From NCBI RefSeq assembly GCF_003628555.1, contig NZ_CP021731.1, forward strand, positions 2,604,001 through 2,668,000: a stretch of DNA of 64,000 nt. The letters are read 5' to 3'. The position numbers were made by a program, and so were the translations under genes. The DNA is from Azoarcus sp. DN11. Its GTDB lineage: Bacteria > Pseudomonadota > Gammaproteobacteria > Burkholderiales > Rhodocyclaceae. The first letter of the stretch is position 1, and every line of letters starts with the position of its first letter. Under the pieces are notes generated by a model. It ran no database searches and was not told the origin of the DNA. It was given only the letters and a program-made list of their open reading frames with translations. Positions 5,986 to 41,498 of this stretch are shown piece after piece.

Positions 5986-7611
5986 ATGGACATCCCGTTG
6001 CTGTTGCTTTCGTCGTTCATCATTGCCGTGACAGGCTTGTTGTTCTTCATCTGGTCCCTGCGCAAGGGGCTTCTCGACCCCCATGCCGCCGCGGCCAAGG
6101 TCATCTTTTCATCTGGTGAGATCGGTCGGATCGAGGAACCGGCCGCGACAGCGGCGAAGCAACGGGACCTTCAGCGGGCGATGACGGCGTCGCACTCCGA
6201 ACCCGACGCCACTGAGCTGCAGGCGCGCCTGGCGGCGGATGCCTCGTCGGCTCGACCGGCCTTCGTACTGCTCGGTTTCGCGGTCTTCTGGCTACTGGTT
6301 GCTTCGATTGCGGGCCTCACGAGCTCCATCAAGCTCCATGAGCCGGACTGGCTGACGCAATATGCCTGGCTCAGCTTCGGCCGTATCCGCACGATCCACC
6401 TGAACGCGGTCGCCTACGGATGGGCGCCGATGGCAGCGCTCGGCATCGCCTTGTGGATGTTGCCGCGGTTGCTGAAGACCACGCTGGAGGGTGCGCGCTT
6501 CGCGGTATGGGGGGCCATCCTGTGGAACATCGGACTCGCGGTCGGCATCGGCTGCATCGCGGTCGGGATCAACGATGGCATGGAGTGGCTGGAAATTCCG
6601 GGGCAGGTCGGCGTGCTGTTCGCGGTGGGCGGCGCCATGATCGGCCTGCCGCTGGTCTTCACGCTGCGCCGACGCAAGGTCGAGCACCTTTACGTATCCG
6701 TCTGGTACATGGGCGCGGCGCTCTTCTGGTTCCCCGTCCTCTACATCGTCGCAAAGCTGCCCAACCTGCACTTCGGCGTCGAACAGGCGACGATGAACTG
6801 GTGGTTCGGCCACAACGTGCTGGGGCTCTTTTACACGCCGCTGTCCCTCGCCGCCGTCTACTACTTTCTGCCCAAGGTCATCGGCCGGCCGATCCAATCG
6901 TACAACCTGTCGCTGATCGGTTTCTGGTGTCTCGCGTTCTTCTACGGACAGGTCGGCGGCCACCATCTCGTCGGCGGTCCGGTGCCGGAATGGCTGGTCA
7001 CGCTGTCGATCGTGCAGAGCATCATGATGATCGTGCCCGTCGTCGCGTTCTCGCTGAACCAGCACCTGACGATGCGCGGGCACTTCGCCGCCCTGAAGCA
7101 CTCGCCGACGCTGCGCTTCGTCGTGCTGGGCGGGATGATGTATACGCTGAGCTCGATCCAGGGCTCGTTCGAAGCGCTGCGCAGCGTCAACACGATCACC
7201 CACTTCACGCACTTCACCGTCGCACACGCTCACCTCGGGCTGTACGGCTTCGTCACGCTGGTGATGTTCGGTGCGATCTACTTCGCGATGCCGCGCATCG
7301 TCTCGCGCGAATGGCCGTATCCGAAGCTCATCGCCGTGCACTTCTGGCTGGTTGCGATCGGTTTCGCGATCTACTTCGTGTCGCTGACGACGGCCGGGCT
7401 GCTGCAAGGCTTCGCGATGCTCGATGCCAGCAAGCCTTTCATGGAATCGGTGCGCGTCACGCTGCCCTGGCTGGAGGGGCGCTCGATCGGCGGCGCGTTG
7501 ATGACGCTCGGCCATTTCGCGTTCGCCGCCCACTTCGTGCTGATGGCGCTGGCCCGCGGGCCTCAGCGTAGCGGCGCCGCCATTCTCCGTCCCCTTGCCC
7601 GGACTGCCTGA
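5986..7611 (+). CDS. cbb3-type oxidase catalytic subunit with CcoS-like N-terminal extension
   Basis: This 541-residue membrane protein is the haem-copper catalytic subunit of a divergent cbb3-type oxygen reductase. Residues about 1-50 resemble CcoS (one hydrophobic helix, then WSLRKGLLDPH and a charged tail); CcoS is normally a separate copper-assembly protein. A polar linker follows to about residue 95. The CcoN part has the low-spin haem ligand in RTIHLNAVAYGW, the CuB ligands in WWFGHN and GGHHL, a Tyr six residues before the His pair (the cross-linked Tyr of cbb3), and haem ligands in TVAHAHLGLYGF. These features mark an oxygen reductase, not a nitric oxide reductase. It heads a five-gene operon. 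No separate ccoQ or di-haem ccoP is present. Confidence 0.85.
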   Translation: MDIPLLLLSSFIIAVTGLLFFIWSLRKGLLDPHAAAAKVIFSSGEIGRIEEPAATAAKQRDLQRAMTASHSEPDATELQARLAADASSARPAFVLLGFAVFWLLVASIAGLTSSIKLHEPDWLTQYAWLSFGRIRTIHLNAVAYGWAPMAALGIALWMLPRLLKTTLEGARFAVWGAILWNIGLAVGIGCIAVGINDGMEWLEIPGQVGVLFAVGGAMIGLPLVFTLRRRKVEHLYVSVWYMGAALFWFPVLYIVAKLPNLHFGVEQATMNWWFGHNVLGLFYTPLSLAAVYYFLPKVIGRPIQSYNLSLIGFWCLAFFYGQVGGHHLVGGPVPEWLVTLSIVQSIMMIVPVVAFSLNQHLTMRGHFAALKHSPTLRFVVLGGMMYTLSSIQGSFEALRSVNTITHFTHFTVAHAHLGLYGFVTLVMFGAIYFAMPRIVSREWPYPKLIAVHFWLVAIGFAIYFVSLTTAGLLQGFAMLDASKPFMESVRVTLPWLEGRSIGGALMTLGHFAFAAHFVLMALARGPQRSGAAILRPLARTA

Positions 7612-7614
7612 ACC

Positions 7615-8220
7615 ATGGAAAACCACGTCAAACTGATCTCGGGCGCGATGGTGACGCTCGCCATTGCTACCGTCTCACTCGTCGTGCTGCCCTATCTGCA
7701 GCTTCGTCATGAACCACCCACGGCTGGCCTCAAGCCCTATACCGAAGTGCAGCTGCGCGGACGGCAGGAGTACATCCGCCAGGGCTGCGTCTACTGTCAT
7801 TCGCAGCAGCCGCGCGACCCCTCGCAGGCGCCGGACGACAAGCGTGGCTGGGGCCGGCCTTCGGTCGCGGGCGACTACTACTACGACCGCCCGCATCTGC
7901 TCGGCACGATGCGCACCGGGCCTGATCTGCTCAATATCGGCGCGCGCCAGCCGAGCGCCGACTGGCAGCTCGGCCACCTTTACCAGCCGCGTGCCTACAC
8001 GCCGGGCAGCATCATGCCGGCCTATCCCTTCCTGTTCGAGCTCAAGAAAGAGGCGGGCCCGGGCGACAAGGTCGTCGCGCTGCCGCCACAGTTCGCACCC
8101 GGCGGAGGGGTCGTCGTCGCCACGCAGGAGGCGCAGGACCTTGTGGCCTATCTCCTGTCGCTCGATCGGACCTTCCCCGCGCTGGCGCCGCTCGCCGACG
8201 CGAGCCCGGCCTCCAAATGA
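7615..8220 (+). CDS. CcoO-like mono-haem membrane cytochrome c (cbb3 subunit II)
   Basis: The 201-residue protein has one N-terminal transmembrane helix (about residues 8-26) and a periplasmic domain with a single haem site, QGCVYCHSQQPRD, a hallmark of CcoO. GTMRTGPDLLNIGAR and the PGSIMPAYPFL segment (haem-ligand Met) are also typical CcoO sequences. It passes electrons to the catalytic subunit. It begins 3 bp after the upstream stop codon and its own stop overlaps the next start (ATGA), so translation is coupled along the operon. Confidence 0.88.
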   Translation: MENHVKLISGAMVTLAIATVSLVVLPYLQLRHEPPTAGLKPYTEVQLRGRQEYIRQGCVYCHSQQPRDPSQAPDDKRGWGRPSVAGDYYYDRPHLLGTMRTGPDLLNIGARQPSADWQLGHLYQPRAYTPGSIMPAYPFLFELKKEAGPGDKVVALPPQFAPGGGVVVATQEAQDLVAYLLSLDRTFPALAPLADASPASK

Positions 8221-8828
8221 CTCGCAGCCACTTTCCCGACATGTCAGCCAAGACTCGTAACGATCACGCCCAGCGGCGCGAAAACGTCGATCCGCATGAA
8301 TCCCTCAATCCCGTCCCCCGCCTGATGCTGGGCCTGATCGGCCTGCTGCTCGTGTGGGCCGTCTACTACATCTATACGGCGCATCCCGCTACGCGTCCCG
8401 CCCTCGGAGACCGCCGCAACGTGGAGATCCTCGCGGCCGTGCCGAGCAAGGCCTTCGATGGCGCGCAGATCTTCGGCGCCAATTGCGCGGCCTGCCATCA
8501 GGCCGCAGGCACCGGCATTCCCCAGGTCTTTCCGCCGCTGGCGGGTTCCGCCTGGGTCAATGGCGGCGAACAAGTCGTGATCCAGATTCTGCTGCACGGG
8601 ATCAACGGCAGCATCGAAGTCGCCGGCAACACGTACAACGGCGTGATGCCGGCGTTCGGCGACAAACTCGGCGATGCGGAGATCGCCGCCGTCGCGAGCC
8701 ACATCCGCAGCCAGTGGGGCAATCAGGCTGCGCCGGTGACGGCGGAATCGGTCGCGGATCAGCGCAAGCGCACGGCAGACCGCAGCGCCCCGTGGAACGG
8801 CGGCGCGGAACTCGCGACGCTGAAATAG
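8217..8828 (+). CDS. Membrane-anchored mono-haem cytochrome c (CcoP-like role)
   Basis: The 203-residue protein has a polar N-terminus, a transmembrane helix (LMLGLIGLLLVWAVYYIYTA, about residues 37-56), then a class I cytochrome domain with NCAACHQAAG and the axial-ligand region NGVMPAFGDKL. It occupies the place of CcoP but carries one haem where canonical CcoP has two, and its membrane topology is simple. It is the likely electron entry point of this oxidase. The start at 8217 forms an ATGA overlap with the preceding gene; a second in-frame ATG at 8241 is possible. Confidence 0.8.
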   Translation: MTRSHFPDMSAKTRNDHAQRRENVDPHESLNPVPRLMLGLIGLLLVWAVYYIYTAHPATRPALGDRRNVEILAAVPSKAFDGAQIFGANCAACHQAAGTGIPQVFPPLAGSAWVNGGEQVVIQILLHGINGSIEVAGNTYNGVMPAFGDKLGDAEIAAVASHIRSQWGNQAAPVTAESVADQRKRTADRSAPWNGGAELATLK

Positions 8829-8846
8829 GCCGCGTCGCCACAAGCC

Positions 8847-9470
8847 ATGCGTACTGCCATTACCTGCGCGCTGATCCTGCTGTTGGGCCTCGCGGCATTC
8901 TCGGAGGTCAGCGCCGGCTTCCGGGTCGTCACGAGCGAGGCCGCGCGCCGCCTCGACGTGCGCGAGCACGCGCCGGAAATGCCCGACGCAGCGCTTGTCG
9001 GCGCCGGCGCGTCCGCCTACTCGCTACGTGGGGATCTGGCGCGGGACGGCCGCATCGCACTCGTCGACTTCATCTACACCCGCTGCGAATCGGTGTGCAG
9101 CGTACTGGGCACGGAATTCCAGCAACTGCAGCAGGAGATCCGGAAGCAGGGGCTACAGGACCGCGTTCGCCTCATCAGCATCAGCTTCGACCCGGCAGAC
9201 GACGCCGACGCATTGGCGCGCTACGCAGACCGCATGCACGCCGAGGGCTCCGTCTGGCGCTTCGCCAGTGTCGTCGACCCGCAGGCGTTGCGGCCGCTGC
9301 TCGACGCCTTCGGCATCGTCGTCGTGCCCGATGGAATGGGGGGCTTCGTGCATAACGCCGCGATCCACACGCTCGCCCCGGACGGCCGGCTGATCCGCAT
9401 CGACGACCTCGGTGAGGCCCGCATCGCGCTGCGCTCCGCGCTCACTCACTCGGAGCTTGTGTCACGATGA
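8847..9470 (+). CDS. SCO1/SenC-family copper chaperone
   Basis: The 207-residue protein has a hydrophobic N-terminal signal/anchor and a thioredoxin-like fold. The copper motif CxxxC is seen in YTRCESVCSVLG, and the later His ligand is probably in GGFVHNAAIHTL. SCO proteins deliver copper to, or reduce cysteines in, haem-copper oxidases; in cbb3 systems SenC/PcuC help build CuB. Its place in this oxidase operon fits CuB assembly for the CcoN-like subunit, where the fused CcoS segment may also act. Its stop overlaps the start of the next gene (ATGA). Confidence 0.85.
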   Translation: MRTAITCALILLLGLAAFSEVSAGFRVVTSEAARRLDVREHAPEMPDAALVGAGASAYSLRGDLARDGRIALVDFIYTRCESVCSVLGTEFQQLQQEIRKQGLQDRVRLISISFDPADDADALARYADRMHAEGSVWRFASVVDPQALRPLLDAFGIVVVPDGMGGFVHNAAIHTLAPDGRLIRIDDLGEARIALRSALTHSELVSR

Positions 9471-10078
9471 GCCGCCGCCGATTTGCTTTCCTTGGCGTGG
9501 CACTCCTGGCGGCTGGCACTGTGCCATCGCTACGCACCTGGCTCGAGGCCGACATGGCGCGCCACATGCTCATGCAGTTTCCGCTGCTGATCCTTACCGG
9601 CGCCGCATTCGCGTCAGCGTTGCCGGCGCGCTTGCGCGGCGCTGTCGCTGCCGTCAACGCGCACGGCCTCGCGGGCCTGCTGTTCTGCCTGTTGGTCTCG
9701 GCGTTCTGGATGGTTCCGCGCGCTCTCGATCAGGCTTTGCTGTCGCCCCCGGTGGAAATCGCGAAGATCGCGGCGCTGCTCGTGGCCGGAGGCGCGCTGC
9801 GATTGTCATGGCGCCCGGCCGGCATCGTCGTCCAGACCTTCTTCATCGGAAACTGGGCCTGGATGACCGCGGTCGTCGGGCTTCTCTACCAGGACATGAG
9901 CACGCGCCTGTGCAACGGCTATCTGCTGGATCAACAGGTCATCGCCGGACAGGGACTCGTCGCCCTGGCGATCGTCCTGCCGACGGCATTCATCGCGCTT
10001 CTCGCAAAGCGGGGAGTGCTCGCAGGCGACGCGTCAGAAGCGACTCAGGGCTACCCAACGGGAAGCACTGCGCAGTAG
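9467..10078 (+). CDS. CtaG-like multi-pass membrane protein of the oxidase operon
   Basis: The 203-residue protein contains about five or six hydrophobic segments. An early ARHMLMQFPLLIL segment resembles the HMxxH/Q-type motif of caa3 assembly factor CtaG, followed by conserved Trp/Pro in SAFWMVPRALD, and GNWAWM and NGYLLDQQ loops. By position (last gene, 4-bp overlap with the SCO gene) it is probably an assembly or copper-handling partner of this oxidase. Similarity to CtaG is judged by eye and moderate, so the function is an inference. Confidence 0.55.
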   Translation: MSRRRFAFLGVALLAAGTVPSLRTWLEADMARHMLMQFPLLILTGAAFASALPARLRGAVAAVNAHGLAGLLFCLLVSAFWMVPRALDQALLSPPVEIAKIAALLVAGGALRLSWRPAGIVVQTFFIGNWAWMTAVVGLLYQDMSTRLCNGYLLDQQVIAGQGLVALAIVLPTAFIALLAKRGVLAGDASEATQGYPTGSTAQ

Positions 10079-11474: not shown

Positions 11475-11499
11475 GTGCGGCGCCCGCAGGGCGCCGCAC
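11475..11499. terminator. Strong hairpin after idrA
   Basis: An 11-bp perfect GC stem (GTGCGGCGCCC / GGGCGCCGCAC) with a 3-nt loop begins 8 bp after the idrA stop codon. There is no T-run on the idrA-sense strand, so it may act as a Rho-assisted terminator, a 3'-end stabiliser, or a partial stop between idrA and the EAL gene. Confidence 0.6.
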
Positions 11500-11506
11500 A
11501 GGTTTG

Positions 11507-14185
11507 TCACACGATGTTGCGCGGCTTGAGGCTCATGCGCGCGAACTCATGCTTGTAGGGCGATTCCCCAACCTTGCTCACAACGCCGCGGCCGAGCTTG
11601 TAGCGGTAATTGTTCGTCATCGGGTCGGGCACCGCCGAGACGACGGCGTTGGCGGGCGACTTCGGGAAGTTGAAGTTCGCCTTGGTGACGCCCGGGCGCA
11701 TCTCGTCGGAGACGATCGCGACGGTGCGGAAGCGGCCAACCGTGGTCATGATGTGGCCGTCGCGCATCAGGTCGTTGAAGTTCAGGTCCGCGTCGAGCAC
11801 GCCCTGCGGTTGGCCGGTCTGCACATACACCGTGTCGTTGACGACCTCGACGTAGTCGCCCGACTCGATGCCACGTTTGGCTGCGTCGTCGGGATGGATG
11901 AACAGGAAGGCCTCCGGCCAGCGCTGCGACAGATAGGGCTTGCGCAGGTCGTCGAAGCCCGACTGCCAGGTCTCGTTGACGCGCCCGTTCGTCACCCACA
12001 GCTCGCCCTTCTCCGCACGCGGCTTCACCGCCTCGTAGAACTGGATCCAGCCGGCGTACTTCCACGGCGACTTGAGCAGGATCGCCTTGCCGCTCTGGGT
12101 GTTGAAGGCGGTAAGCACCTTGGTTTGCACGGTCACGCCTTCGAGTTCGCCCCAGTCGTTGGTCGGGTCGTGCAGGCGTTGGGTACCGACGAGCTTACCG
12201 TCGCGCTTGCGGATCGGAGTCTGGATGCCGGTCGTGCCGTAGGTGCGCAGCAACTCCTGCGCCTTGACACCCTTCGTCTTCGCCTCGTCGGTCAGCACGT
12301 GGTAGCTCAGCACGCCGTTTCGCGAGTAACGCGAACCTTCCTCGAAGACGTCGTTGGAATCCTTCCAGTTGTAACCGCCGTCCTTGTCCAATCCCATCTT
12401 CTGAGCGAATTTCTGGATGATCCACCAGTCGGGCTTGGCCTCGCCCGGCGCATCGTAGAACTTGCTGTACAGACGCAGGCGGCGCTCGGAGTTGCAGCGC
12501 GTGAAGTTGTCCTCGCCCCAGGTCGCCGCGGGCAGCACGATGTCGGCGAGCTCGGTGCCGATCGGCATGACCGGGTAGATATCGGAATTGACCATCACCA
12601 TTCCGCCGCCGTCGACGCGGCGCTTGAGCGTCTCGAAGATCGAGCGGCGGTCGAGATGCGTGATCTGGTGCGGACTATCGACGGTCAGCTCGCGCATGCG
12701 CTTCTCGAGCGCGTTCGAGCCCATCATCGCGGCAATCCAGGTCGTGCCGATGACCCAGGCGAAGCGCAGGTTGCCTTCCATCAGCCACAAGTCGAGGTTG
12801 AAGCTCTTCTTGCGCCGGCCGGGATATTTTTCCGGCGAGAGCCAGCTGGAGCCGCCGCCCGCCACCAGGCCACCGCGCTGGTGGCCACCGCCGCGCGAGA
12901 TCATGCGCCCGGGCCGGTTACCGGCGCCGCAGATAAGACCGAGCGACGCGAAGGACGTCGTGTTCATGTAGTTGTTGGACCAGTAGTTGCCCTTCTCGCA
13001 CATGAAAGAGGTCTTCGGCAACGAGCCGTCGGCCTTGCGCTTGGCGATCCACTCGGCGGCCTTGACGATGTCGGCCGGGTCGAGGCCGGTGATCTTCGCC
13101 GCGACGTCGAGTTTCGACTCTTCCTGGCTGAGGATGAATTTCTTGTAGTCGGGCCAGTCGCTCTGCCACGTTCCCCAGGTGGTGCGCCATTGCCAGCCGG
13201 TGTTGCGCGTGCCACGGCCGTAGCCGGAGTCGACCTCCCACGAGTTTGCGATCCACTTGTCGATGAATTCCTGGTCCTGCCAGTTGTTCTCGATGATGAT
13301 GCGTGCGAGCGCCATGTGCAGCACGGTGTCGGTGCCCGGGATCACGGGCAGCCACAGCCCGCGCCCCTCGCGCAGCGACCAGGCGACGCCGGTGGTCTTG
13401 TGCGGGGTGACGAAGATGAATTTCTTGTCGCCGGGCATCATCCACGTGGTGAACAGTGTGGTCTTCGTCTCGTAAGGATCGACGCCGGACAGGAAGGCCA
13501 CTTCGCAGTCCGCCCAGTCCTGGTAACTCGACGCGAACGAGTCGATGCCGGCGTCGTCGAGACCGGTCGCGTCGTTGGTGTTCGACGCCTTGTCGTGCCA
13601 TGCGAAGGCCGGCGTGCCGATCGAGGTCATCGCCAGCTTGGTGATCGCGTACGTGTTCTCGAAATACTGGTAGGAATAGGTCTTCATTCCCCATGCATGT
13701 TCGCCGTACTTTGTGAGGATGTACTGCGAAATGTCCGCCATGACCTCCGTGGCGAGATCCCAGGTGACCGGCGTGAGCCGGCCATTGACGCGGATCATCG
13801 GGTGCTGCAAGCGCTCGCGCGTGAGGTTGTCCGGGTTGTAGCACTTCTCGGCCAGCGTACCGCCGCGGATGGAGTGGTTGCCGCCGACATTGACCACGGT
13901 CGCGTCCTTGTCTGGCACGACTACCACGTGGTGGGGCTTGCCCTTGAAACTGACGACGTTGTGCTGCGAAGGGCTTACCCAGGCGGACATCATCATTTGA
14001 TGCGGGAAGTCGGCTCGCAGTGCGTTCTGCGCAGCCTTCGCGCCGCCTTCCCTGCCCACCGGCCAGCGATACACCTTGTAGCCGCAGGCAACGGTGCAGT
14101 AATCGCAGGCGGTCGTGAAGACGTCGGCGTCCTTCGGCGGCAGAGGTACAAAGTCCTTTGCCGTGTTCTTGTCGTGAATGCTCAT
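11507..14185 (-). CDS. idrA: Iodate reductase molybdopterin subunit IdrA (arsenite-oxidase-like)
   Basis: This 892-residue DMSO-reductase-superfamily protein is of the arsenite oxidase (Aio) type. Near the N-terminus CDYCTVAC (C27, C30, C34) gives CxxCxxxC, and S105 in NHSIRGG lies exactly where the fourth cluster ligand is Ser in AioA, implying a [3Fe-4S] cluster. The pocket segment RGGGHQ (R431, H435) matches the AioA Arg/His pair, but the AioA Glu of HNRPAYNSE appears here as Asp205 (manual alignment). There is no signal peptide; like AioA it should be exported folded with its Tat-bearing Rieske partner. The neighbours are idrB and two di-haem peroxidases, the combination described for dissimilatory iodate reduction (idrABP1P2). 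Arsenite oxidase loci normally do not have such a peroxidase pair. The product should reduce iodate in the periplasm. Confidence 0.85.
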   Translation of the reverse strand: MSIHDKNTAKDFVPLPPKDADVFTTACDYCTVACGYKVYRWPVGREGGAKAAQNALRADFPHQMMMSAWVSPSQHNVVSFKGKPHHVVVVPDKDATVVNVGGNHSIRGGTLAEKCYNPDNLTRERLQHPMIRVNGRLTPVTWDLATEVMADISQYILTKYGEHAWGMKTYSYQYFENTYAITKLAMTSIGTPAFAWHDKASNTNDATGLDDAGIDSFASSYQDWADCEVAFLSGVDPYETKTTLFTTWMMPGDKKFIFVTPHKTTGVAWSLREGRGLWLPVIPGTDTVLHMALARIIIENNWQDQEFIDKWIANSWEVDSGYGRGTRNTGWQWRTTWGTWQSDWPDYKKFILSQEESKLDVAAKITGLDPADIVKAAEWIAKRKADGSLPKTSFMCEKGNYWSNNYMNTTSFASLGLICGAGNRPGRMISRGGGHQRGGLVAGGGSSWLSPEKYPGRRKKSFNLDLWLMEGNLRFAWVIGTTWIAAMMGSNALEKRMRELTVDSPHQITHLDRRSIFETLKRRVDGGGMVMVNSDIYPVMPIGTELADIVLPAATWGEDNFTRCNSERRLRLYSKFYDAPGEAKPDWWIIQKFAQKMGLDKDGGYNWKDSNDVFEEGSRYSRNGVLSYHVLTDEAKTKGVKAQELLRTYGTTGIQTPIRKRDGKLVGTQRLHDPTNDWGELEGVTVQTKVLTAFNTQSGKAILLKSPWKYAGWIQFYEAVKPRAEKGELWVTNGRVNETWQSGFDDLRKPYLSQRWPEAFLFIHPDDAAKRGIESGDYVEVVNDTVYVQTGQPQGVLDADLNFNDLMRDGHIMTTVGRFRTVAIVSDEMRPGVTKANFNFPKSPANAVVSAVPDPMTNNYRYKLGRGVVSKVGESPYKHEFARMSLKPRNIV

Positions 14186-14196
14186 GCTGGTTCTCC

Positions 14197-14787
14197 TCAG
14201 GCGCGGTGCTCGGCGGTCATCGCGCTGTAGCCGTAGACCAATCCCATCACGCCGACGGCGTAGATGTCGTCACCCTGCACTTCCAGCGTGATCTGCGGCA
14301 GGCTCTCGGTCGCGTGGCCCGCAACCACCATGCCGTGGCGTGTAAGGTCGAAGCTGGTGAGGTGCAGCGGGCACGGCCCGAGCACCTGATGCCCGGGCTT
14401 GTAGGTGCCGTCGAGCGGGCCGCCCATGTGCGTGCATTGCTGGTTGAAGGCAACGATGTCGCTGTCGGGGCCGATGCCGCCGCCGGCCGGCGCGCCCAAC
14501 TTGACGAGGATGTTGCGCACGTCGGCATAGGGATAGTTGAAGGTCAGCGGCTCGCCGACCTTCAGGGCCGACAGGCTGCCGATCTTCTGCCGCGCGTAGC
14601 TTGCTTTCAGCAACTGCGCGGCTTCGGCGAAGCCGGGGATGCCGCCGAGGCTGACCAGCGCGAGCGCCGCGCCGCCGGTCAGGAGGAAGCTGCGGCGGCT
14701 CATGCATGTGCGCCCGCCTTCGTGATCGTGATCGTGTCCGGCGGGCTGCCGGATCTGGATCGCCCTCTGGCTCGATGTCTGGCTCAT
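14197..14787 (-). CDS. idrB: Iodate reductase Rieske subunit IdrB
   Basis: The 196-residue protein passes electrons to IdrA. The Rieske [2Fe-2S] motifs are CTHMGG and CPLHLTSFD (two Cys, two His). The residues after HMG and after CP are Gly and Leu, so the disulfide of many Rieske proteins is missing, a feature known to vary among arsenite-oxidase relatives. A twin-arginine signal is visible: SRRSFLLTGG, then a hydrophobic stretch. I choose the start at 14787 because AAGGAG precedes it; this adds an about 28-residue N-terminal leader containing HDHDHEGG before the Tat motif. A start at 14703 would give a conventional Tat peptide. The gap to idrA is 11 bp. Confidence 0.85.
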   Translation of the reverse strand: MSQTSSQRAIQIRQPAGHDHDHEGGRTCMSRRSFLLTGGAALALVSLGGIPGFAEAAQLLKASYARQKIGSLSALKVGEPLTFNYPYADVRNILVKLGAPAGGGIGPDSDIVAFNQQCTHMGGPLDGTYKPGHQVLGPCPLHLTSFDLTRHGMVVAGHATESLPQITLEVQGDDIYAVGVMGLVYGYSAMTAEHRA

Positions 14788-14798
14788 GTTCAGGCTCC

Positions 14799-15938
14799 TT
14801 ACTTCGTCGGCGCGGGCAGCGGCTGGTAGGCGCCCGGCAGCTTGGGTTCGTCGTGGATCAGCGGTTCGCTCATCGACAGGGCATCGAGGAAAGCGAGCAG
14901 GTCGGCCTTCTCCTGTGCCGTCAGGCCCAGTGGCTTGAGCAGTTCGCTCTTGTTGGCCGCGTTTCCGCCGCCCGCATCGTAGAAATCCACCACCTGTTCC
15001 AGCGTCTTGAATACGCCGTTGTGCATGTAGGGCGCGGTGTATTTCAATTCGCGCAGCGATGGTGTGCGGAACTTGCCGATGTCCTTGGGATTCTTGGTCT
15101 GGAAGTACAGCCCGTAGTCCATGTCGGCACTGCGGTACTTCTGCTCCGCGACGCCCTTCTGGTAGTGTTCCCAGCGATGCGTGACCTGATACAGCACGTC
15201 GGTCTTGAAACCTTCGAAGTCGGGCAGACCAAGGTTGTAGAACTTCTGGTCGGAGGCAAGCGGCCCGTTGTGGCACTGGATGCATCCGGCCTTGCCGTTG
15301 AAGAGCGTCATGCCACGCTTCTGCGCGTCGTTCAGGGCTTTCCTGTCGCCATTTGCGTAGCGGTCGAAGGGCACTTTCGACGCGTCGGAGACGACGGTGC
15401 GCTGGTAGGACGAGATCGCGCGGTAGGCGTCATTCATGCGCGGCCACTCGGCGCCAAACACCTTCTTGAAGGCTTCGACGTACTCGGGCAGGAAGCGCAT
15501 GCGCATTTCCATCACCGAGGGGTCGCCGTTGCCGGCGACGCTGCCTTCGGCTGCCGATGAGGCCTCGGACTCGAGACTGGTCGAAGTCCCGTCCCAGAAC
15601 AGCTTGTTGTAGTACGCGGCGTTGAGGATGGTCTGCGAGTTGCGCCAGTGCTGCGTGCCCGGGTAGCCGCGCGAGATCGCGTTGTTGTCGCCCCAGCCGA
15701 GCGCAGGCAGGTGGCAGGATACGCAGGGCATCGAGCCATCGCCCGACAGACGGCTGTCCCAGAAGAGCTGCTTGCCGAGCGCGATCTTCTCCGGGGACTG
15801 CGGGTTGTCCTTTGGGGACGGCACGGGCGGTAGTGGCGCGAGCGGCGGGAAGGTCTGGCCGGTGGCGGCCGTTGCGGTGAGCACCACCGCGAAGGAGGCG
15901 GCGATCGCCGAGAGCTTGAGCGTTGTGCGGTTTTTCAT
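14799..15938 (-). CDS. idrP2: Di-haem cytochrome c peroxidase-like protein of the idr operon (second)
   Basis: The 379-residue exported protein has a signal peptide (MKNRTTLKLSAIAASFAVV, cleavage after about residue 27), followed by a Pro-rich segment. Two haem c sites, PCVSCHLPALGW and GCIQCHNGPLAS, and the Met-containing YMHNGVF motif place it in the CcpA/MauG family. It should reduce hydrogen peroxide in the periplasm using c-type cytochrome electrons. In the iodate reductase model such peroxidases remove peroxide or reactive intermediates formed by IdrAB. The start at 15938 is supported by GAGGGA upstream; the gap to idrB is 11 bp. The P1/P2 numbering follows gene order here and may not match published numbering. 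Confidence 0.82.
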   Translation of the reverse strand: MKNRTTLKLSAIAASFAVVLTATAATGQTFPPLAPLPPVPSPKDNPQSPEKIALGKQLFWDSRLSGDGSMPCVSCHLPALGWGDNNAISRGYPGTQHWRNSQTILNAAYYNKLFWDGTSTSLESEASSAAEGSVAGNGDPSVMEMRMRFLPEYVEAFKKVFGAEWPRMNDAYRAISSYQRTVVSDASKVPFDRYANGDRKALNDAQKRGMTLFNGKAGCIQCHNGPLASDQKFYNLGLPDFEGFKTDVLYQVTHRWEHYQKGVAEQKYRSADMDYGLYFQTKNPKDIGKFRTPSLRELKYTAPYMHNGVFKTLEQVVDFYDAGGGNAANKSELLKPLGLTAQEKADLLAFLDALSMSEPLIHDEPKLPGAYQPLPAPTK

Positions 15939-15948
15939 CGTGCGTCCC

Positions 15949-17055
15949 TCAGTTCTTGCCGAAAGTACGGACCTGCATGTCGGGCTGGCCCGGGTTCGCC
16001 ACGACGACCGGATCACCCGACAACGTCAGCAGGAAAATCACGAGCGCCTTCTGTTCGCCGGCCGAGAGGTTCAGCGGCTTCAGCCCCGAGCCTTCGCCAC
16101 CGCCCCGGTTGTAGAACGCGACCACTTCATCGAGCGTCGCGAAGACGCCGTTGTGCATATACGGCGCGGTGTATTTGAGGTCGCGCAGCTGTGCGGTCTG
16201 GAACTTGCCGATGTCCGCGGGATTCTTCGTGATCGCGTAGGCGCCGACGTCGGTGCGCGCGCTCATGTAGTTCGGCAGGCCGTTCGTCGCGTAGTGGCGC
16301 AGCATCGTGATCGTGCGCAGCGGGTTCGCGAGCACGTCCGGATGCTCGGGCACGCCGGTCTTGTACAGCTTGCCGTCCGAGCCGATCGGGCCGTTGTGGC
16401 AGGCCACACAGCCGGCCTTGCCCTTGAACAGCGCATAGCCTTCCTTCGCCTCGGCGCTGATCGCGTCGGCGTCGCCCCTGGCGAATTTGTCGAAGGGCGC
16501 GTTGGTGGTCTCCAGGCTGCGGATGAACTCGCCGATGACGTTGAATACGCGCATGCCGTTGATGTCGTCGTTGCGCCACTTCTTCCACAGCGCGTCGTAC
16601 TCCGGCACCTGCTTCAGGCGCTCCTGCATCAGGCGCCCGTCCATGTTCATCGTGTGCGTCTCGGTGATCATGTCGCGCACGAGGGTGCCGGCGTCGGTGC
16701 CGTCGAGGCGCCCGTCCCACATGAAGCGCTGGCGATACTTCGCGTTGAGCACGGTGGGCGCGTTGCGGAAGTACTCCATCGACGGATAGCCCGTCGACAG
16801 GGCCTGGCCGTCGCCCCAGCCCTTGGCCGGGTCGTGACAGGACGCGCACGACCGGCCCCAATCGCCGGACAGGCGGCGGTCGAAGAAGAAGTATTTGCCG
16901 AGCTCGATCATTGCGGCATTGCCCGGCTTCACTTCGGGCATCGGCGCGAGGTCGGGAGCGGCGCCCTGGGCGCCGGACGGGAGCAGCCAAGCCGCCGCAG
17001 CCATGCTGCAGGCAGCGAGGAGGCGCCCCGTGCGCGTGTTGTTCGTCGTTTTCAT
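15949..17055 (-). CDS. idrP1: Di-haem cytochrome c peroxidase-like protein of the idr operon (first)
   Basis: The 368-residue exported protein starts MKTTNNTRTGRLLAACSMA with a cleavable signal ending about AQGA. Haem sites are SCASCHDPAKGW and GCVACHNGPIGS, and YMHNGVF follows in the C-terminal domain. It resembles the next gene over its whole length, as expected for a duplicated CcpA/MauG pair. It is the promoter-proximal gene: AAGGGGAAATC precedes the ATG and a sigma-54 promoter lies 46 bp upstream. The four genes idrP1-idrP2-idrB-idrA are separated by only 10-11 bp each, so they form one operon. Confidence 0.82.
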   Translation of the reverse strand: MKTTNNTRTGRLLAACSMAAAAWLLPSGAQGAAPDLAPMPEVKPGNAAMIELGKYFFFDRRLSGDWGRSCASCHDPAKGWGDGQALSTGYPSMEYFRNAPTVLNAKYRQRFMWDGRLDGTDAGTLVRDMITETHTMNMDGRLMQERLKQVPEYDALWKKWRNDDINGMRVFNVIGEFIRSLETTNAPFDKFARGDADAISAEAKEGYALFKGKAGCVACHNGPIGSDGKLYKTGVPEHPDVLANPLRTITMLRHYATNGLPNYMSARTDVGAYAITKNPADIGKFQTAQLRDLKYTAPYMHNGVFATLDEVVAFYNRGGGEGSGLKPLNLSAGEQKALVIFLLTLSGDPVVVANPGQPDMQVRTFGKN

Positions 17056-17100
17056 GATTTCCCCTTGCACGAAGAAAGACCCGACTATCGCAAGGGGTAC

Positions 17101-17116
17101 TGCAAACCCTGTGCCA
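17101..17116 (-). promoter_or_regulatory. Sigma-54 (-24/-12) promoter of the idr operon
   Basis: Read on the minus strand the element is TGGCACAGGGTTTGCA: TGGCAC, a 5-bp spacer, then TTGCA. Both halves match the RpoN consensus (TGGCAC-N5-TTGCW) completely. Transcription would start near 17090, leaving a leader of about 35 nt before the idrP1 ATG at 17055. The gene directly upstream encodes a sigma-54-dependent activator, which makes a functional pairing likely. Confidence 0.88.
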
Positions 17117-17135
17117 TTTTCATGACACATGAAAA
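17117..17135. promoter_or_regulatory. Inverted repeat abutting the sigma-54 promoter
   Basis: TTTTCATG-ACA-CATGAAAA is a perfect 8-bp inverted repeat directly upstream of the -24 box. It is too close to be a classical enhancer site for an NtrC-type activator, and could instead bind a repressor or a bending protein. Confidence 0.5.
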
Positions 17136-17190
17136 CATTCAATAAATCATGGATTTGCTGACGAAATAGGGAAAACGGGCGGTGGTTGGA

Positions 17191-17210
17191 AATTGACCAG
17201 CCGATCAATT
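17191..17210. promoter_or_regulatory. Candidate upstream activator site for the idr promoter
   Basis: AATTGACCAGCCGATCAATT contains the 6-bp inverted repeat AATTGA/TCAATT and overlaps the stop codon of the regulator gene. It is about 100-120 bp upstream of the predicted transcription start, the usual distance for binding of NtrC-family dimers. Confidence 0.4.
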
Positions 17211-18614
17211 TTTGACCGGTTGAAAACCATCCCCGCCACCTTCGCCCGCGCCCGGTTGCAGCTCGTATTCGCGCAGCTTGGTGCGCAGCGTCAACCGGGT
17301 GATGCCGAGGATCTCCGCGGCCCGTGTTTTGTTGCCCGCGACGTGGTCCAGTACGCGCAGGATGTGCTGGCGCTCCACCTCCGCCAGCGACATCGGGGTC
17401 GCAGCTTCATCCGCGGCTACTGCACTTTCGCCGCTCGCAGGCGCGGCGGCGTGCCCGAAGGGCAGCTGCTCGACCGTGATGACGCCATCCGACGCGAGGA
17501 TTGCCGCGCGCTCCATCACGTTGCGCAGCTCGCGGATGTTGCCGGGCCAGCGGTACGCGAGCAGGCGCGACACCACTTCGGGTTCGATCGCCGGGCTCGT
17601 CATGCCCAGATGCAGCGCGGCCAGTTCCAGGAAGTGGCGTGCCAGCGGCAGGATGTCGGCGGCGCGTTCGCGCAGCGGCGGCACGGCGATGCTGCCGACG
17701 TTGAGGCGGTAGAAGAGATCCTCGCGGAAGCTGCCGTCGCGAACCATCACGGGCAGGTTGCGGTGCGTTGCAGCGACGAAGCGCACATCGACGCGGATCT
17801 CCTTGCTGCCGCCCAGGCGGCGGAAGGCCTGGGTCTCCAGCACGCGCAGCAGCTTGGGTTGCAGGGCGGGCGACAGGTCGCCGACCTCGTCGAGGAACAG
17901 CGTGCCGCCGTCGGCCAGTTCGAGCAGGCCCTTCTTGGCCTGGCGCGCGTCGGTGAAGGCGCCCTTCTCGTGGCCGAACATCTCCGATTCGAGCAGCCCT
18001 TCGGGCAGCGCCGAGCAGTTCAGCGTCACCCACGGCCCCGCGGCGCGGGCCGACAGGCTGTGGATGGACTGTGCGATGTGTTCCTTGCCGGTGCCCGACT
18101 CGCCGAGGATCAGCGCCGGCACGCGCCCCGCGGCGGCAATCTTGCGTGTCGTCTCGAGCAACTCGCGGAACGCGGCGCTGTCGCCGATCAGCCCCGGCAC
18201 GACGTCCCCGCCCGCCTGCGCGCGGCGCCATTCGACCTCGCGCCGCAGCTGGCGCGTCTCGAAAGCCCGCCGGATCAGGCTGTCGAGGTCATCGAGGTCG
18301 AAGGGCTTGTTGATGTAGTCGTAAGCCCCCGCCTTCAGTGCCGCGACAGCTGTGCGCACCTCAGGGTAGGCCGTCATCGTCACGACCAGCGCGTCCTCCT
18401 CGAACTCGTGCAGGCGCGCGATCACCTCCAGTCCGGGGATGTCGGGCAGGCGCAGGTCGAGCAGGATCAGCCCGAAGCGCGTCTCGCGCGCGAGCGCCAA
18501 CCCGTCGAGGCCGCAGGCGGCGGCCTGCACTTCGTAACCCTTGCGCGACAGCAGGCCCAGCAGGGTCAGGCGCAGGGTCTCGTCGTCTTCAATGATGAGG
18601 ATGGTGTTGCTCAT
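17205..18614 (-). CDS. NtrC-family sigma-54-dependent response regulator
   Basis: The 469-residue protein has three domains in order. The receiver (1-120) shows IIEDDETLR, the phospho-acceptor in [12 protein letters not shown], and the conserved Lys in YINKPFDL. The AAA+ domain (about 140-370) has Walker [10 protein letters not shown], the sigma-54 contact loop, Walker [11 protein letters not shown] and arginine-containing [11 protein letters not shown]. The Fis-type helix-turn-helix (about 425-465) includes [20 protein letters not shown]. The contact loop reads GAFTDA where the consensus is GAFTGA. The start ATG at 18614 lies inside the kinase gene (26-bp overlap), so kinase and regulator are co-translated. 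It is followed directly by a sigma-54 promoter driving idr, its most probable target. Confidence 0.92.
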
Positions 18615-20916
18615 GCCCGCTCGCGGAATGTATTGGCCACAGCAGCGTGAAGCAGCTTCCATGCCGTCCGTCGCTGTTCACCCCGATCTCGGCTCCATGC
18701 TCCTCCACGATCTTGTGCACGATGGACAGCCCGAGCCCCGAGCCGCCCTCGCGCGTCGTGAAGAAGGGTTCGAAGATGCGCCGCTGCAAGGTCTCCGGAA
18801 TGCCCGGCCCGCTGTCGCGCACGTCGATGCGGACCCGCTCGCCTTCTGCCCCGGCTGCGATGACGACGGTACCGCCGTCGGGCTGCGCGCGCAGCGCGTT
18901 GATCACGAGGTTCAGCAGCACCTGCTTGAGCTGCGCCGGGTCGGCGCGCAGCGGCGGCAGTGTGTCGGGAATGTGCGTCGTGATCTCGACCTTCTGGTTG
19001 CGTGCCTCCTTGCGCGTCCAGAACAGGATGTCGGTCAGCGTCTCCCCCAACGGCGTCGCGCGCAGGTCGGGCGCCGTGGGAGCCGCGAAACCGTGGAAGG
19101 TGCGCAGGAAATCCGAGAGCCGGTCCGTTTCCCCTTCGAGACGGCGCAGCGCCTCGAACACGCCGGGAGGCAGGTCATCCTCGTACTGCAGGGCCTGGGC
19201 GACGGCCTTCATGCCCGCCAGCGGGTTGCCGATCTCATGCGCGAGTCCCATCGCGAGCTCGCCCATGGTGGCCATCTTGTCCATCTGGAACAGTTGCCGA
19301 TCGAGCTCGCGGCGCTCGTCCTGCAGGCGCCGCTCGTCGCTGATGTCGCGGGCGACGACCAGGAACGAGCGTCCGCCGCTGACATCGCGCGTCGAGGTGA
19401 TCGACAGCGCGAGCACCCTCCCCCGGGTCTTGAGATCGCGGCGCACGGGCATGTCGTCGGCGATATCGGCGGCGATACTCGGCCATTCGCTCCAGAATTC
19501 GGCCAGGCGACTACCGGCGACCTCCGCATCCGAGCCCAGCAGCTCCCGCGCTGCGCCGTTCGCCAGCGTGATCTCGCCGTTTTCCGCAACGACCAGGATG
19601 CCGTCGCCGGTATGTTGAATGATCGCGGCAAGCCAGGCACGCTCGTGAGCGAGTTCCCGCGTCCGGGCGCCAACCTCGTCTTCGAGCCGGTCACGATGCG
19701 CTGCGAGCTTCCCGTAAAGCTCGGCGAGGCGGTCGGTCATCGCATTGAACTTGGTCCCGAGGTCCGCGATCTCGTCGTCGCCGGAAATGCTCACGCGTCG
19801 CGTGAAATCGCCGGCGGCGATCGCCTCCGTCTCCTGCGCCAGCGCGTCCACAGGGCCCAGAAGACGGCGGGACAACGCGTAGCCGCCGATCGCCGTGACA
19901 ATCATCGCGACAACGAGGACGGCATACAGGACGTACAGGTTGACGACAGAGAAGAACAGCGCCTGTTGCGCCATGTCCACCGCGATCACCCAGCGCCCCC
20001 CGGTCGTATCCGGAAAGGCCTGGCCGAATTCGATCGGTGCGTACGCGACGATCCGCTCTCCGGTCATCAGCGTGCCTTCGCGCCCGCTCTGCACTGCGGG
20101 AAGATGCGACGCGCCGAACACGTCCTGGAGGGCATCGACCGACTGCATCGCGAAGCCCGACGCGGTCTCGCGCGAGCGCGACAGGAAGTGCCCCGCGCGA
20201 TCGAACAGATATGCCGTACCGTCGCGTGCAACCGCCATCTGCTCGATCTGTGCGAGCAGGATGTCGGCGTCGAGATTCACCACCAGGATGCCATCCGTGG
20301 CTGCACCCCGTTCGCCGAGCGCAATCGCGACCCGCACGACCGGATGCTCGGGTGTTTCGATCTGGCCGAACTCGACGTTCAGGTCGAGCGGCGAGACATA
20401 CAGGCTGCCGGGTTCGATCTGCATCGCGTCGCGGAAATAATAGCGGTCGGACTTGTCCTGCAGTTCCTCCCCCGATACCACGATCACGTCGTGGCCGCGC
20501 CGGTCGACACGCACGCGCTCGTGGCCGTCCCGGCTGAGGAAACGGATCTGGTAGATATGCGGATAGGCCGACGCAAGCGCGCTGTAATCGTGTTCCAGGC
20601 GCCGCGTGGCGGCTTGTGCGCGAGCACCGTCTTCCTGCCGGATCGCGCTGCGCAGTTCCGCGAGTGCCGGCGCACCGGCAAGGTAGCGCAGCTCCGCGGA
20701 GAGCTGGTTGAAGAAGAGCGACACGCCCTTCGCACGAACCGACACTTCCTGTCTCAGATGGCGCAGGGTTTCTTCACGCAATTGGTCGACCGAAAGCGTC
20801 ACCCCGATGATGCCGGCAATGCCGGTGGGGATGACCGCGGCGGCCAGGAATGCGAAGTAGATGCGCCGCGCAAGGCCGCCGCCGCCGAGCGCGCGCTTTA
20901 GTATGCGATCCAGCAA
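18589..20916 (-). CDS. Membrane-bound sensor histidine kinase
   Basis: The protein is about 775 residues. Order: N-terminal transmembrane helix (IYFAFLAAAVIPTGIAGIIG), a periplasmic double-Cache/dCACHE-like sensor of about 300 residues, a second transmembrane helix (VVNLYVLYAVLVVAMIVTAI), HAMP, PAS (IIQHTGDGILVV), HisKA with the phosphorylated His in LAHEIGNPLAG, and HATPase with DSGPGIP and GGSGLGLSI. The likely start is TTG at 20916, preceded by GGAGG; longer frames to 21099 lack this site and a credible N-terminus. The periplasmic sensor should detect a small extracellular ligand and phosphorylate the downstream NtrC-type regulator. Iodate, iodide or a redox-derived signal is a guess from context. 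Confidence 0.88.
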   Translation of the reverse strand: MLDRILKRALGGGGLARRIYFAFLAAAVIPTGIAGIIGVTLSVDQLREETLRHLRQEVSVRAKGVSLFFNQLSAELRYLAGAPALAELRSAIRQEDGARAQAATRRLEHDYSALASAYPHIYQIRFLSRDGHERVRVDRRGHDVIVVSGEELQDKSDRYYFRDAMQIEPGSLYVSPLDLNVEFGQIETPEHPVVRVAIALGERGAATDGILVVNLDADILLAQIEQMAVARDGTAYLFDRAGHFLSRSRETASGFAMQSVDALQDVFGASHLPAVQSGREGTLMTGERIVAYAPIEFGQAFPDTTGGRWVIAVDMAQQALFFSVVNLYVLYAVLVVAMIVTAIGGYALSRRLLGPVDALAQETEAIAAGDFTRRVSISGDDEIADLGTKFNAMTDRLAELYGKLAAHRDRLEDEVGARTRELAHERAWLAAIIQHTGDGILVVAENGEITLANGAARELLGSDAEVAGSRLAEFWSEWPSIAADIADDMPVRRDLKTRGRVLALSITSTRDVSGGRSFLVVARDISDERRLQDERRELDRQLFQMDKMATMGELAMGLAHEIGNPLAGMKAVAQALQYEDDLPPGVFEALRRLEGETDRLSDFLRTFHGFAAPTAPDLRATPLGETLTDILFWTRKEARNQKVEITTHIPDTLPPLRADPAQLKQVLLNLVINALRAQPDGGTVVIAAGAEGERVRIDVRDSGPGIPETLQRRIFEPFFTTREGGSGLGLSIVHKIVEEHGAEIGVNSDGRHGSCFTLLWPIHSASGHEQHHPHH

Positions 20917-21130
20917 GAGACCTCCGTGGGTCGGCGCCACACTGCGGCGCGGTGCTCCGGACGGGAGCCACGCGCTTTCGCGCCTCGAAGCTTTCCGGGC
21001 ACGGATCTTCGCATGAAATGCAGTTGCCGTAACACGCAGCCATGCTCTCCGGCATCCGCGGGAAAATGCGCGCCCCGCGCGGAACCATTGGTGCAACAAT
21101 TCGGGATTCTTCCCGCTCGGGAGTCTCCCA

Positions 21131-26298: not shown

Positions 26299-26330
26299 GC
26301 GGCGGCCCTGCGGGGCCGCCGCGGCTTTTT
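26299..26330 (+). terminator. Rho-independent terminator of the large peroxidase gene
   Basis: A 10-bp stem GCGGCGGCCC / GGGCCGCCGC with loop TGCG is followed by GGCTTTTT. It begins 28 bp after the stop codon. Confidence 0.9.
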
Positions 26331-26337
26331 GCCCGTG

Positions 26338-26480
26338 TCAGAAACTCTTCGACACGGCAAACACGTAGCGCTGCTTGAAGATCTCGCGCCACATCCCCTC
26401 CCCGTTCGTCGCGGCCAGCACTTCATAACCCTCGCACACATCCAGGCGCGCGCTGGTGACCGGATCGTCATCAACAACGA
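26338..26480 (-). pseudogene. Fragment of a response-regulator receiver domain
   Basis: The minus-strand frame reads ARLLVVDDDPVTSARL, then EGYEVLAATNGEGMWREI, which is the first half of a receiver domain (Asp pair, alpha1, beta2). It then changes to KQRYVFAVSKSF and stops, without the phospho-acceptor Asp or the conserved Lys. The last residues, ending in aromatic Phe, look more like the final strand of an outer-membrane protein. The likely origin is a deletion joining two gene remnants. Upstream (26481-26704) nothing recognisable is coded. Confidence 0.5.
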
Positions 26481-26704
26481 GAAGTCTGGCGGGTCGGTTT
26501 TCGATCAAGGCGGACTGGCGGGAACGGTCGGGGACAGGCCGGCAATAATATCGGGATTCACCTTCGCGCCGTCCGGGGATGCAGGCAGCCACAGGCAGAC
26601 CTCGGCCTGCCTCAGACCGAGGAATCGAAGATTTGCGAACTCCTGTGGTCCGCTGTCGATCCAAGAAGGTGGAGTTTCATCCTCCGACAGCAGGGGACGC
26701 TCGA

Positions 26705-27121
26705 ATGACGATGTTGAGGCTTTCCTCCCCCTTGCGCGATTCGATCCTCTCGGCGGCGCAGGCGGGTTACCCGAACGAGGTGTGCGGACTGCTTCTGGGG
26801 CAGCAGGACGGCGACGTGGTGACCGTGTGCACCGTGCATCCTGTGCGCAACGTGCATCCGGACCGCACCGCCGATCGTTTCCTGATCGAGCCGCAGGACT
26901 ACCTCGACGCGGAATATGCCGCAGCCGCCGGCGGCGTGCAGGTGGTGGGCGTGTGGCATTCCCACCCCGACCACCCGGCGAGACCCTCGGCAACCGACCG
27001 CGAATTCGCCTGGGGCGGCTGGTCGTATCCGATCGTGTCCGTGAAGGCCGGCGTCGCCACCGAGTTGCGTTCGTGGCGGCTCGACGGCGAAGCGTTCGGC
27101 GAAGAGGAGGTGCTGTCATGA
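26705..27121 (+). CDS. JAMM/MPN+ metallopeptidase (Mec-like)
   Basis: The 138-residue protein is a zinc peptidase of the JAB1/MPN+ family. The active site is complete: Glu in NEVCGLLLG, and HSHPDHPARPSATD, which fits HxH-x7-SxxD. Small bacterial members such as Mycobacterium Mec+ remove cysteine or peptides from the C-terminal diglycine of the sulfur carrier CysO. The next gene begins with such a carrier domain and overlaps this one by ATGA, and a CysM-like synthase follows. The ATG at 26705 has AGGGGA upstream; longer frames extend into the non-coding spacer. Confidence 0.85.
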   Translation: MTMLRLSSPLRDSILSAAQAGYPNEVCGLLLGQQDGDVVTVCTVHPVRNVHPDRTADRFLIEPQDYLDAEYAAAAGGVQVVGVWHSHPDHPARPSATDREFAWGGWSYPIVSVKAGVATELRSWRLDGEAFGEEEVLS

Positions 27122-41440: not shown

Positions 41441-41498
41441 TTTCTCCTCCTCTCCTTGTCGTTCGTGTCGGTCTGGCATCTCCTTGCGGCGGCGGAAT

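Follow-up and report, generated by a model that had tools for sequence, protein, structure and literature searches.

A four-gene operon in the chromosome of the groundwater bacterium Azoarcus sp. DN11 raises the question of whether a molybdenum enzyme with the appearance of an arsenite oxidase is in fact a reductase of iodate. The stretch of DNA analyzed (hereafter the window) comprises 64,000 nucleotides (nt) of contig NZ_CP021731.1, positions 2,604,001 to 2,668,000, and carries the operon as four contiguous genes, all on the minus strand, in the order idrP2-idrP1-idrB-idrA. It is almost certainly the dissimilatory iodate reductase operon of this strain, with the roles of IdrAB, IdrP1/IdrP2 and the neighbouring regulators as proposed below. 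The operon has already been described and experimentally tested in DN11 and the present analysis is a correct rediscovery.

Iodate reductase or arsenite oxidase

The operon's first gene, idrP2 (15949..17055), and the following idrP1 (14799..15938) encode predicted di-haem proteins of 368 and 379 residues in the superfamily of cytochrome c peroxidase (CCP) and MauG, each with the Pfam domain CCP_MauG and two CXXCH motifs (C70/C73/H74 and C216/C219/H220 in IdrP2, C72/C75/H76 and C219/C222/H223 in IdrP1). The third gene, idrB (14197..14787), encodes a Rieske [2Fe-2S] subunit of 196 residues (Pfam Rieske) whose translation, read by eye, has a motif of the twin-arginine translocation (Tat) type, SRRSFL, and the sequence CTH-X18-CPLH. 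The last gene, idrA (11507..14185), encodes the catalytic molybdopterin subunit of 892 residues (Rieske_3, Molybdopterin and Molydop_binding), with a [3Fe-4S] site at C27, C30 and C34 together with S105 (CX2CX3CX70S). The genes are separated by 10, 11 and 11 nt. A first-pass annotation, made from the sequence, had described the same cluster site with Ser105, a Tat-exported Rieske partner and two di-haem proteins directly upstream with gaps of 10-11 bp, all of which is confirmed in the translations. It had also recognized the gene set, with the two P names swapped (idrP1-idrP2-idrB-idrA). We assign idrP2 to the first position because of the DN11 accessions (IdrA AYH44092, IdrB 44093, IdrP1 44094, IdrP2 44095; PMC10149662), which presumably run along the chromosome, and because the order is printed as idrP2,P1,B,A (PMC10989891).

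For comparison, 80 idrA-related loci were kept from 562 encoding a relative, among the matches listed. The P2-P1-B-A order is present in 72 of the 80, and in 66 of the 67 where the contig extends at least 3.7 kb upstream of idrA, so that the four-gene arrangement exceeds chance. Seven of the incomplete loci have the idrA start less than 2 kb from a contig end, and L043 is the only exception with room. This last locus (L043:10001-12700) is a planctomycete IdrA relative of 53% identity with no idrB or idrP match within approximately 10 kb on either side.

A tree was inferred with IQ-TREE from 93 rows, comprising 80 IdrA sequences (window included), 9 AioA references and 4 outgroup sequences; the partial IdrA of locus L062 (715 residues) was left out. 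All 80 IdrA rows, the window among them, lie on one side of a branch with 100/100 support, and the 9 AioA references form a separate clade with the same support. The window IdrA has L041 (81%) as its nearest row. This tree had been set beforehand as the check on the claim of an iodate reductase, and IdrA fell outside AioA; a position within AioA was to have counted against the claim. The other IdrA rows are putative iodate reductases, named on the basis of their gene set and of published papers.

A column comparison draws the same line through an otherwise similar pair of enzymes. AioAB shares with IdrAB a large subunit with a [3Fe-4S] cluster and a molybdenum site and a small Rieske subunit. 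The comparison took the 107 columns in which the 9 AioA rows never vary and the 80 IdrA rows agree to at least 95%; of these, 84 are identical between the two enzymes and 23 are switched (16 substitutions and 7 gaps). The Glu found eight residues past a conserved His in 9/9 AioA, which we take to be the arsenite-site Glu, is Asp or Ser in the seven IdrA rows inspected (Asp205 in the window), and the AioA motif GGHQEG has become GGHQRG, with Arg replacing Glu in 80/80 IdrA. AioAB catalyses the reverse kind of reaction.

In view of the separate clades, the altered arsenite-site Glu, the GGHQRG motif and the iodate respiration of DN11 (PMC10149662), it is highly improbable that the operon encodes AioAB, the arsenite oxidase, accompanied by two accessory peroxidases. 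This alternative draws on the solved structures that match best, which are AroA/AioA, and on the arsenite-oxidase models of NCBI (TIGR02693 and TIGR02694), whose curated cut-offs are exceeded by both window proteins (IdrA 436 vs. 359 with TIGR02693, IdrB 119 vs. 96). The model scores weigh against an iodate reductase, as do two points in the DN11 account (PMC10149662): IdrB is not named among the proteins of the active band, and no idr knock-out of DN11 was found in the available part of that account, the idrA knock-out being one of Denitromonas IR-12. As to the scores, 398 sampled genomes yielded 9 AioA with 1072-1310 bits for TIGR02693 and 5 IdrA with 404-437, so that the cut-off of 359 fails to separate the two; because high-scoring AioA lie so far above IdrA, we read the scores above the cut-off as kinship. 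The same cross-scoring is a naming trap, in that IdrA and IdrB may be annotated as arsenate reductase (azurin) or arsenite oxidase, and surveys of the arsenic cycle can be misled by it.

Published work on DN11 and its relatives completes the case. Azoarcus sp. DN11 grows on acetate with iodate, which it respires (Sasamura et al. 2023, PMC10149662), its Idr-active band contains IdrA, IdrP1 and IdrP2, and idrA expression by quantitative PCR in iodate-grown cells was 104-fold over nitrate and 59-fold over O2 (PMC10149662). The idrABP1P2 cluster of that account matches the window in its gene cluster, in the motifs CX2CX3CX70S, CXHX18CX2H and SRRSFL, and in its atoC/atoS and moeB neighbours. The iodate reduction island of Denitromonas sp. 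IR-12 and Aromatoleum toluclasticum TC-10 has the same four genes, with two peroxidase-like genes ahead of idrAB (PMC8692401, PMC8801600); it differs from the window in the flanking genes, and its cytochrome c551 and molybdenum-cofactor genes vary (PMC8801600). AioA neighbourhoods, in contrast to this gene set, are described as being without peroxidase genes (PMC8692401). The iodate reductase is thus preferred over an arsenite oxidase because of the tree, the gene set, the switched columns and what has been published on growth, proteome and gene expression in DN11, and the first-pass annotation was right on this point.

In the proposed mechanism, IdrAB would be a periplasmic molybdenum enzyme that probably receives electrons from cytochrome c via the Rieske protein IdrB, and iodate would be reduced at the molybdenum site of IdrA as the final step of anaerobic respiration. 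The product of IdrAB is thought to be hypoiodous acid (HIO), which may then be disproportionated or further reduced to iodide. IdrP1 and IdrP2, the co-produced di-haem proteins, may handle a reactive by-product.

Haem-ligand positions of IdrP1 and IdrP2

Residues of IdrP1 and IdrP2 were counted in the window and in 70 other loci whose gene order is clear (ten loci were dropped, and L056 was left out for IdrP1 owing to a stop), using a MAFFT alignment with the CCPs 1iqc and 3hq6 and with PDB entry 6e1c, presumably MbnH, as references. In CCPs we take a Met to be the ligand of the C-terminal haem and the distal His to belong to the N-terminal haem. The distal-His column holds Tyr in 69/70 IdrP1 and 71/71 IdrP2 (Tyr92 and Tyr90 in the window) and Ser in 6e1c. 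The residue 14 positions past the His of the PYxH motif is Met in both CCP references and Tyr in 6e1c, and it is Tyr in 68/70 IdrP1 (Phe in the other 2) and in 68/71 IdrP2 (2 His, 1 Lys), L044 being cut there. This fixed-distance count was used because the Met column is sensitive to the alignment: MAFFT placed it differently in two runs, and in the IdrP2 alignment put the CCP Met against another, gapped column. The window residues at this C-terminal ligand position are Tyr320 of IdrP1, which aligned with MauG chain position 294, and Tyr315 of IdrP2, which was matched by the alignment ends and by distance. A Glu one residue from the CCP Glu is kept in 70/70 IdrP1 (Glu123 in the window), and the CCP Glu column of IdrP2 holds Asp in 44, Thr in 25 and Ser in 2 of 71 sequences, with a register that is uncertain owing to an insert in IdrP2; the window IdrP2 is likewise without the conserved Glu there.

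The predicted folds of the two proteins (mean predicted local distance difference test, pLDDT, of 83 and 88) have the two-domain di-haem architecture common to MauG (3l4m), 6e1c and di-haem CCPs (1iqc, 2vhd). CCPs match best and MauG somewhat less (34.0 vs. 30.5 for IdrP1, 33.3 vs. 29.4 for IdrP2), and IdrP1 is nearly tied between CCP and 6e1c (34.0 and 33.2). Two CXXCH motifs and the CCP/MauG fold, as in bacterial di-haem CCPs, are thus accompanied in IdrP1 and IdrP2 by the loss of both the Met ligand and the distal His, with a Tyr at the C-terminal ligand position as in MauG and 6e1c where the compared CCPs have Met. Judging by these residues, IdrP1 and IdrP2 are predicted to be members of the CCP/MauG superfamily whose ligand set is unusual. 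The name "cytochrome c peroxidase" is doubtful because Tyr replaces both the C-terminal Met ligand and the distal His.

The published model holds IdrP1 and IdrP2 to be ordinary cytochrome c peroxidases whose sole task is the removal of hydrogen peroxide (H2O2). The fold scores agree with this, whereas the Tyr at both positions and an IdrP2 without the conserved Glu do not, and on balance we give the model slightly less than an even chance. Another possibility is that both are di-haem enzymes of a MauG/MbnH-like kind and act on a reduced iodine oxyacid, such as HIO, by reducing or scavenging it; an enzyme would then deliver the last two electrons. The Tyr at the MauG Tyr294 position, the strict linkage to idrBA in the loci with room and an active band that holds IdrA, IdrP1 and IdrP2 together (PMC10149662) point in this direction. 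Against it, abiotic disproportionation of HIO could suffice (PMC8692401), overall fold scores favour CCPs over MauG for both models, and the curated MauG/MbnH models TIGR03791 and TIGR04039 gave best scores of 202 and 221 bits, short of the cut-offs of 444 and 363. The idea is therefore a tentative one and, as things stand, rather unlikely. No paper linking IdrP1 to MauG was found in the open-licence literature.

A third and much larger CCP_MauG protein, of 819 residues, is encoded at 23812-26271 (plus strand), between the histidine kinase gene described below and a moeB-like gene (26329-28569; ThiF/Rhodanese/ThiS), and PF03150 is found in the DN11 genome only in IdrP1, IdrP2, this third gene of the window and, as a short match, in a 283-residue frame elsewhere. 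A protein of approximately 250 residues with a CarboxypepD_reg-like C-terminal part occurs in 29/80 idr loci and is absent from the DN11 window; in 17 its gene is upstream of the idrP2 match at a distance of at most 500 nt (examples are L086:6017-6787, L037:6196-6960, L052:6162-6956 and L072:1506-2255). A His...Cys-X-His...Met pattern, which to us resembles a cupredoxin site, is matched in 17 of the 29 and unmatched in 12. Idr might alternatively receive its electrons from this protein.

Regulator pair and predicted sigma-54 promoter

Upstream of idrP2, on the same strand, lie an NtrC/AtoC-type response regulator gene (17205..18662), whose product has receiver, sigma-54 AAA+ and Fis-type helix-turn-helix domains, and a sensor histidine kinase gene (18589..21099), whose product has a Cache-like bacterial histidine kinase sensor domain and HAMP, PAS, HisKA and HATPase domains; both assignments come from domain matches, and the DN11 paper names the genes atoC and atoS (PMC10149662). 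A two-component system has been proposed as iodate sensor (PMC8801600). The pair probably senses iodate and would turn the operon on via a sigma-54 promoter, for which the intergenic region separating idrP2 from the regulator gene offers a candidate, a predicted -24/-12 element on the minus strand at 17102..17116 (TGGCACAGGGTTTGC). A dyad, GGTCAA-N3-TTGATC, lies at 17203..17217, 86 bp upstream of the -24 element and overlapping the end of the regulator gene, and is a predicted site for an NtrC-type regulator; a pattern scan places an imperfect second dyad with one mismatch at 17184..17198, as part of a predicted upstream activating sequence.

Promoters were scored with a simple 27-point scheme for TGGCACGN4TTGC, and TGGCACAGGGTTTGC is the sole site with a score of at least 26/27 in the window on both strands. 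The exact pattern TGGCACN5TTGC occurs at 25 sites in the DN11 genome vs. 5 for a reversed control, and as background the 80 loci hold 24 sites scoring at least 26 in 3.0 million scanned positions, idr-promoter sites included. A sigma-54 site of 26/27 precedes idrP2 in 8/8 beta-proteobacterial loci examined in which a kinase/regulator pair abuts idr, namely the window, L018, L021, L024, L041 and the congeners G601, G602 and G605. In all eight, a dyad GRTYRA-N3-TYRAYC with at most one mismatch (GGTYAA-N3-TTRACC-like) lies 74-136 bp upstream of the -24 element. The dyad pattern was drawn up from the first five loci, which are therefore not independent tests; only G601, G602 and G605 were inspected later, and all three show a site of 26/27 together with a one-mismatch dyad. 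The exact dyad pattern is found at 5 places in the DN11 genome, one of them at idr, where the reversed control gives 1; the 80 loci contain it 5 times, 3 of these within regulator-idrP2 gaps.

The promoter scan covered 65 rows, that is the window and 64 of the 80 loci, the other 16 being cut or without an assignable start, with short-flank loci outside the scan; start calls were automatic except for L018 and L021, whose promoters were read by hand. Among 56 scored loci without a same-strand upstream regulator, none has a site of 26 in the 400 nt around the assigned start; L042, L049 and L095 reach 25, and L029 has a site of 26 just inside its predicted gene. In L037, L051, L052, L072 and L086 a less similar regulator lies 0.7-1.3 kb upstream, and in each of them the interval contains a sigma-54-like site scoring 24-27. 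A same-strand match to the window regulator no more than 1.6 kb upstream was found in only 9/72 full idr loci, some contigs ending there. Most idr loci being without the adjacent pair, the putative sigma-54 control would therefore belong to one lineage.

One could also suppose that the adjacent pair serves other genes and that idr is induced by another factor, as the scarcity of the pair among idr loci at the search sensitivity used would allow. We consider this improbable, because the pair adjoins idr in all three other idr-bearing genomes of the genus, promoter and dyad are kept in all eight loci examined, and the few dyad places and exact -24/-12 sites of the genome include one each at idr. 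The conserved sigma-54 site and dyads thus offer a possible cis-acting site for the two-component control that earlier papers had suggested. No description of an idr promoter was found in the open-licence literature on iodate with sigma-54 or two-component systems (PMC10149662, PMC8801600, in the sections available), and neither the promoter and dyad sequences nor a haem-ligand analysis was seen in the available DN11 account (PMC10149662).

Taken together, it is conceivable, as a speculative and on the whole unlikely combination, that IdrP1 and IdrP2, instead of being cytochrome c peroxidases, form a distinct Tyr-ligated, MauG/MbnH-like pair that finishes iodate reduction on a reactive iodine intermediate within an IdrABP1P2 complex, and that in one lineage a dedicated iodate-sensing kinase/NtrC pair governs the whole set by acting at a sigma-54 promoter with GGTYAA-N3-TTRACC sites.

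Distribution, neighbouring genes and significance

The first-pass annotation had regarded the operon as a candidate mobile accessory unit. Its patchy presence agrees with this, idr being found in 3/16 other genomes of the genus (among the matches listed) and in 9/199 genomes of a family sample that includes the window's own, as does a 5.8-kb island predicted in DN11 by IslandViewer (PMC8692401). Mobility is thus supported in part. No clean empty idr site was found in congeners next to mutS, to the cbb3 cluster or to the methionine-gamma-lyase-like gene, regions in which the window flanks are not adjacent. G605 keeps the block 11492-21027 at 88% DNA identity, and G601 and G602 have the same order with 84-85% identity in idr and 68-69% in the regulator pair.

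An unusual cbb3-type oxidase cluster lies beside mutS at 5986-10078 (plus strand), with a short CcoO (201 residues), a separate cytochrome c and SCO. A link between this cluster and idr was rejected, since the cluster is present in the idr-less congeners G603, G598, G599 and G100 and is on a contig other than that of idr in G601. The first-pass annotation had also placed the iodate system next to anaerobic benzoate catabolism; the respiratory iodate system stands, but the adjacency is a weaker point, as the likely benzoate genes (an AMP-ligase at 39839-41479 and an oxidoreductase at 45833-48382, assigned by Pfam) are over 20 kb from the operon, with no shown link, and DN11 was grown on acetate with iodate.

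The main finding confirms published work, to which the present analysis adds the promoter and dyad detail and the IdrP haem-ligand residues. With a predicted promoter and dyads located, control by iodate can be tested directly, and the IdrP residues bear on which step completes the conversion of HIO to iodide and on whether H2O2 is the substrate of IdrP1 and IdrP2.

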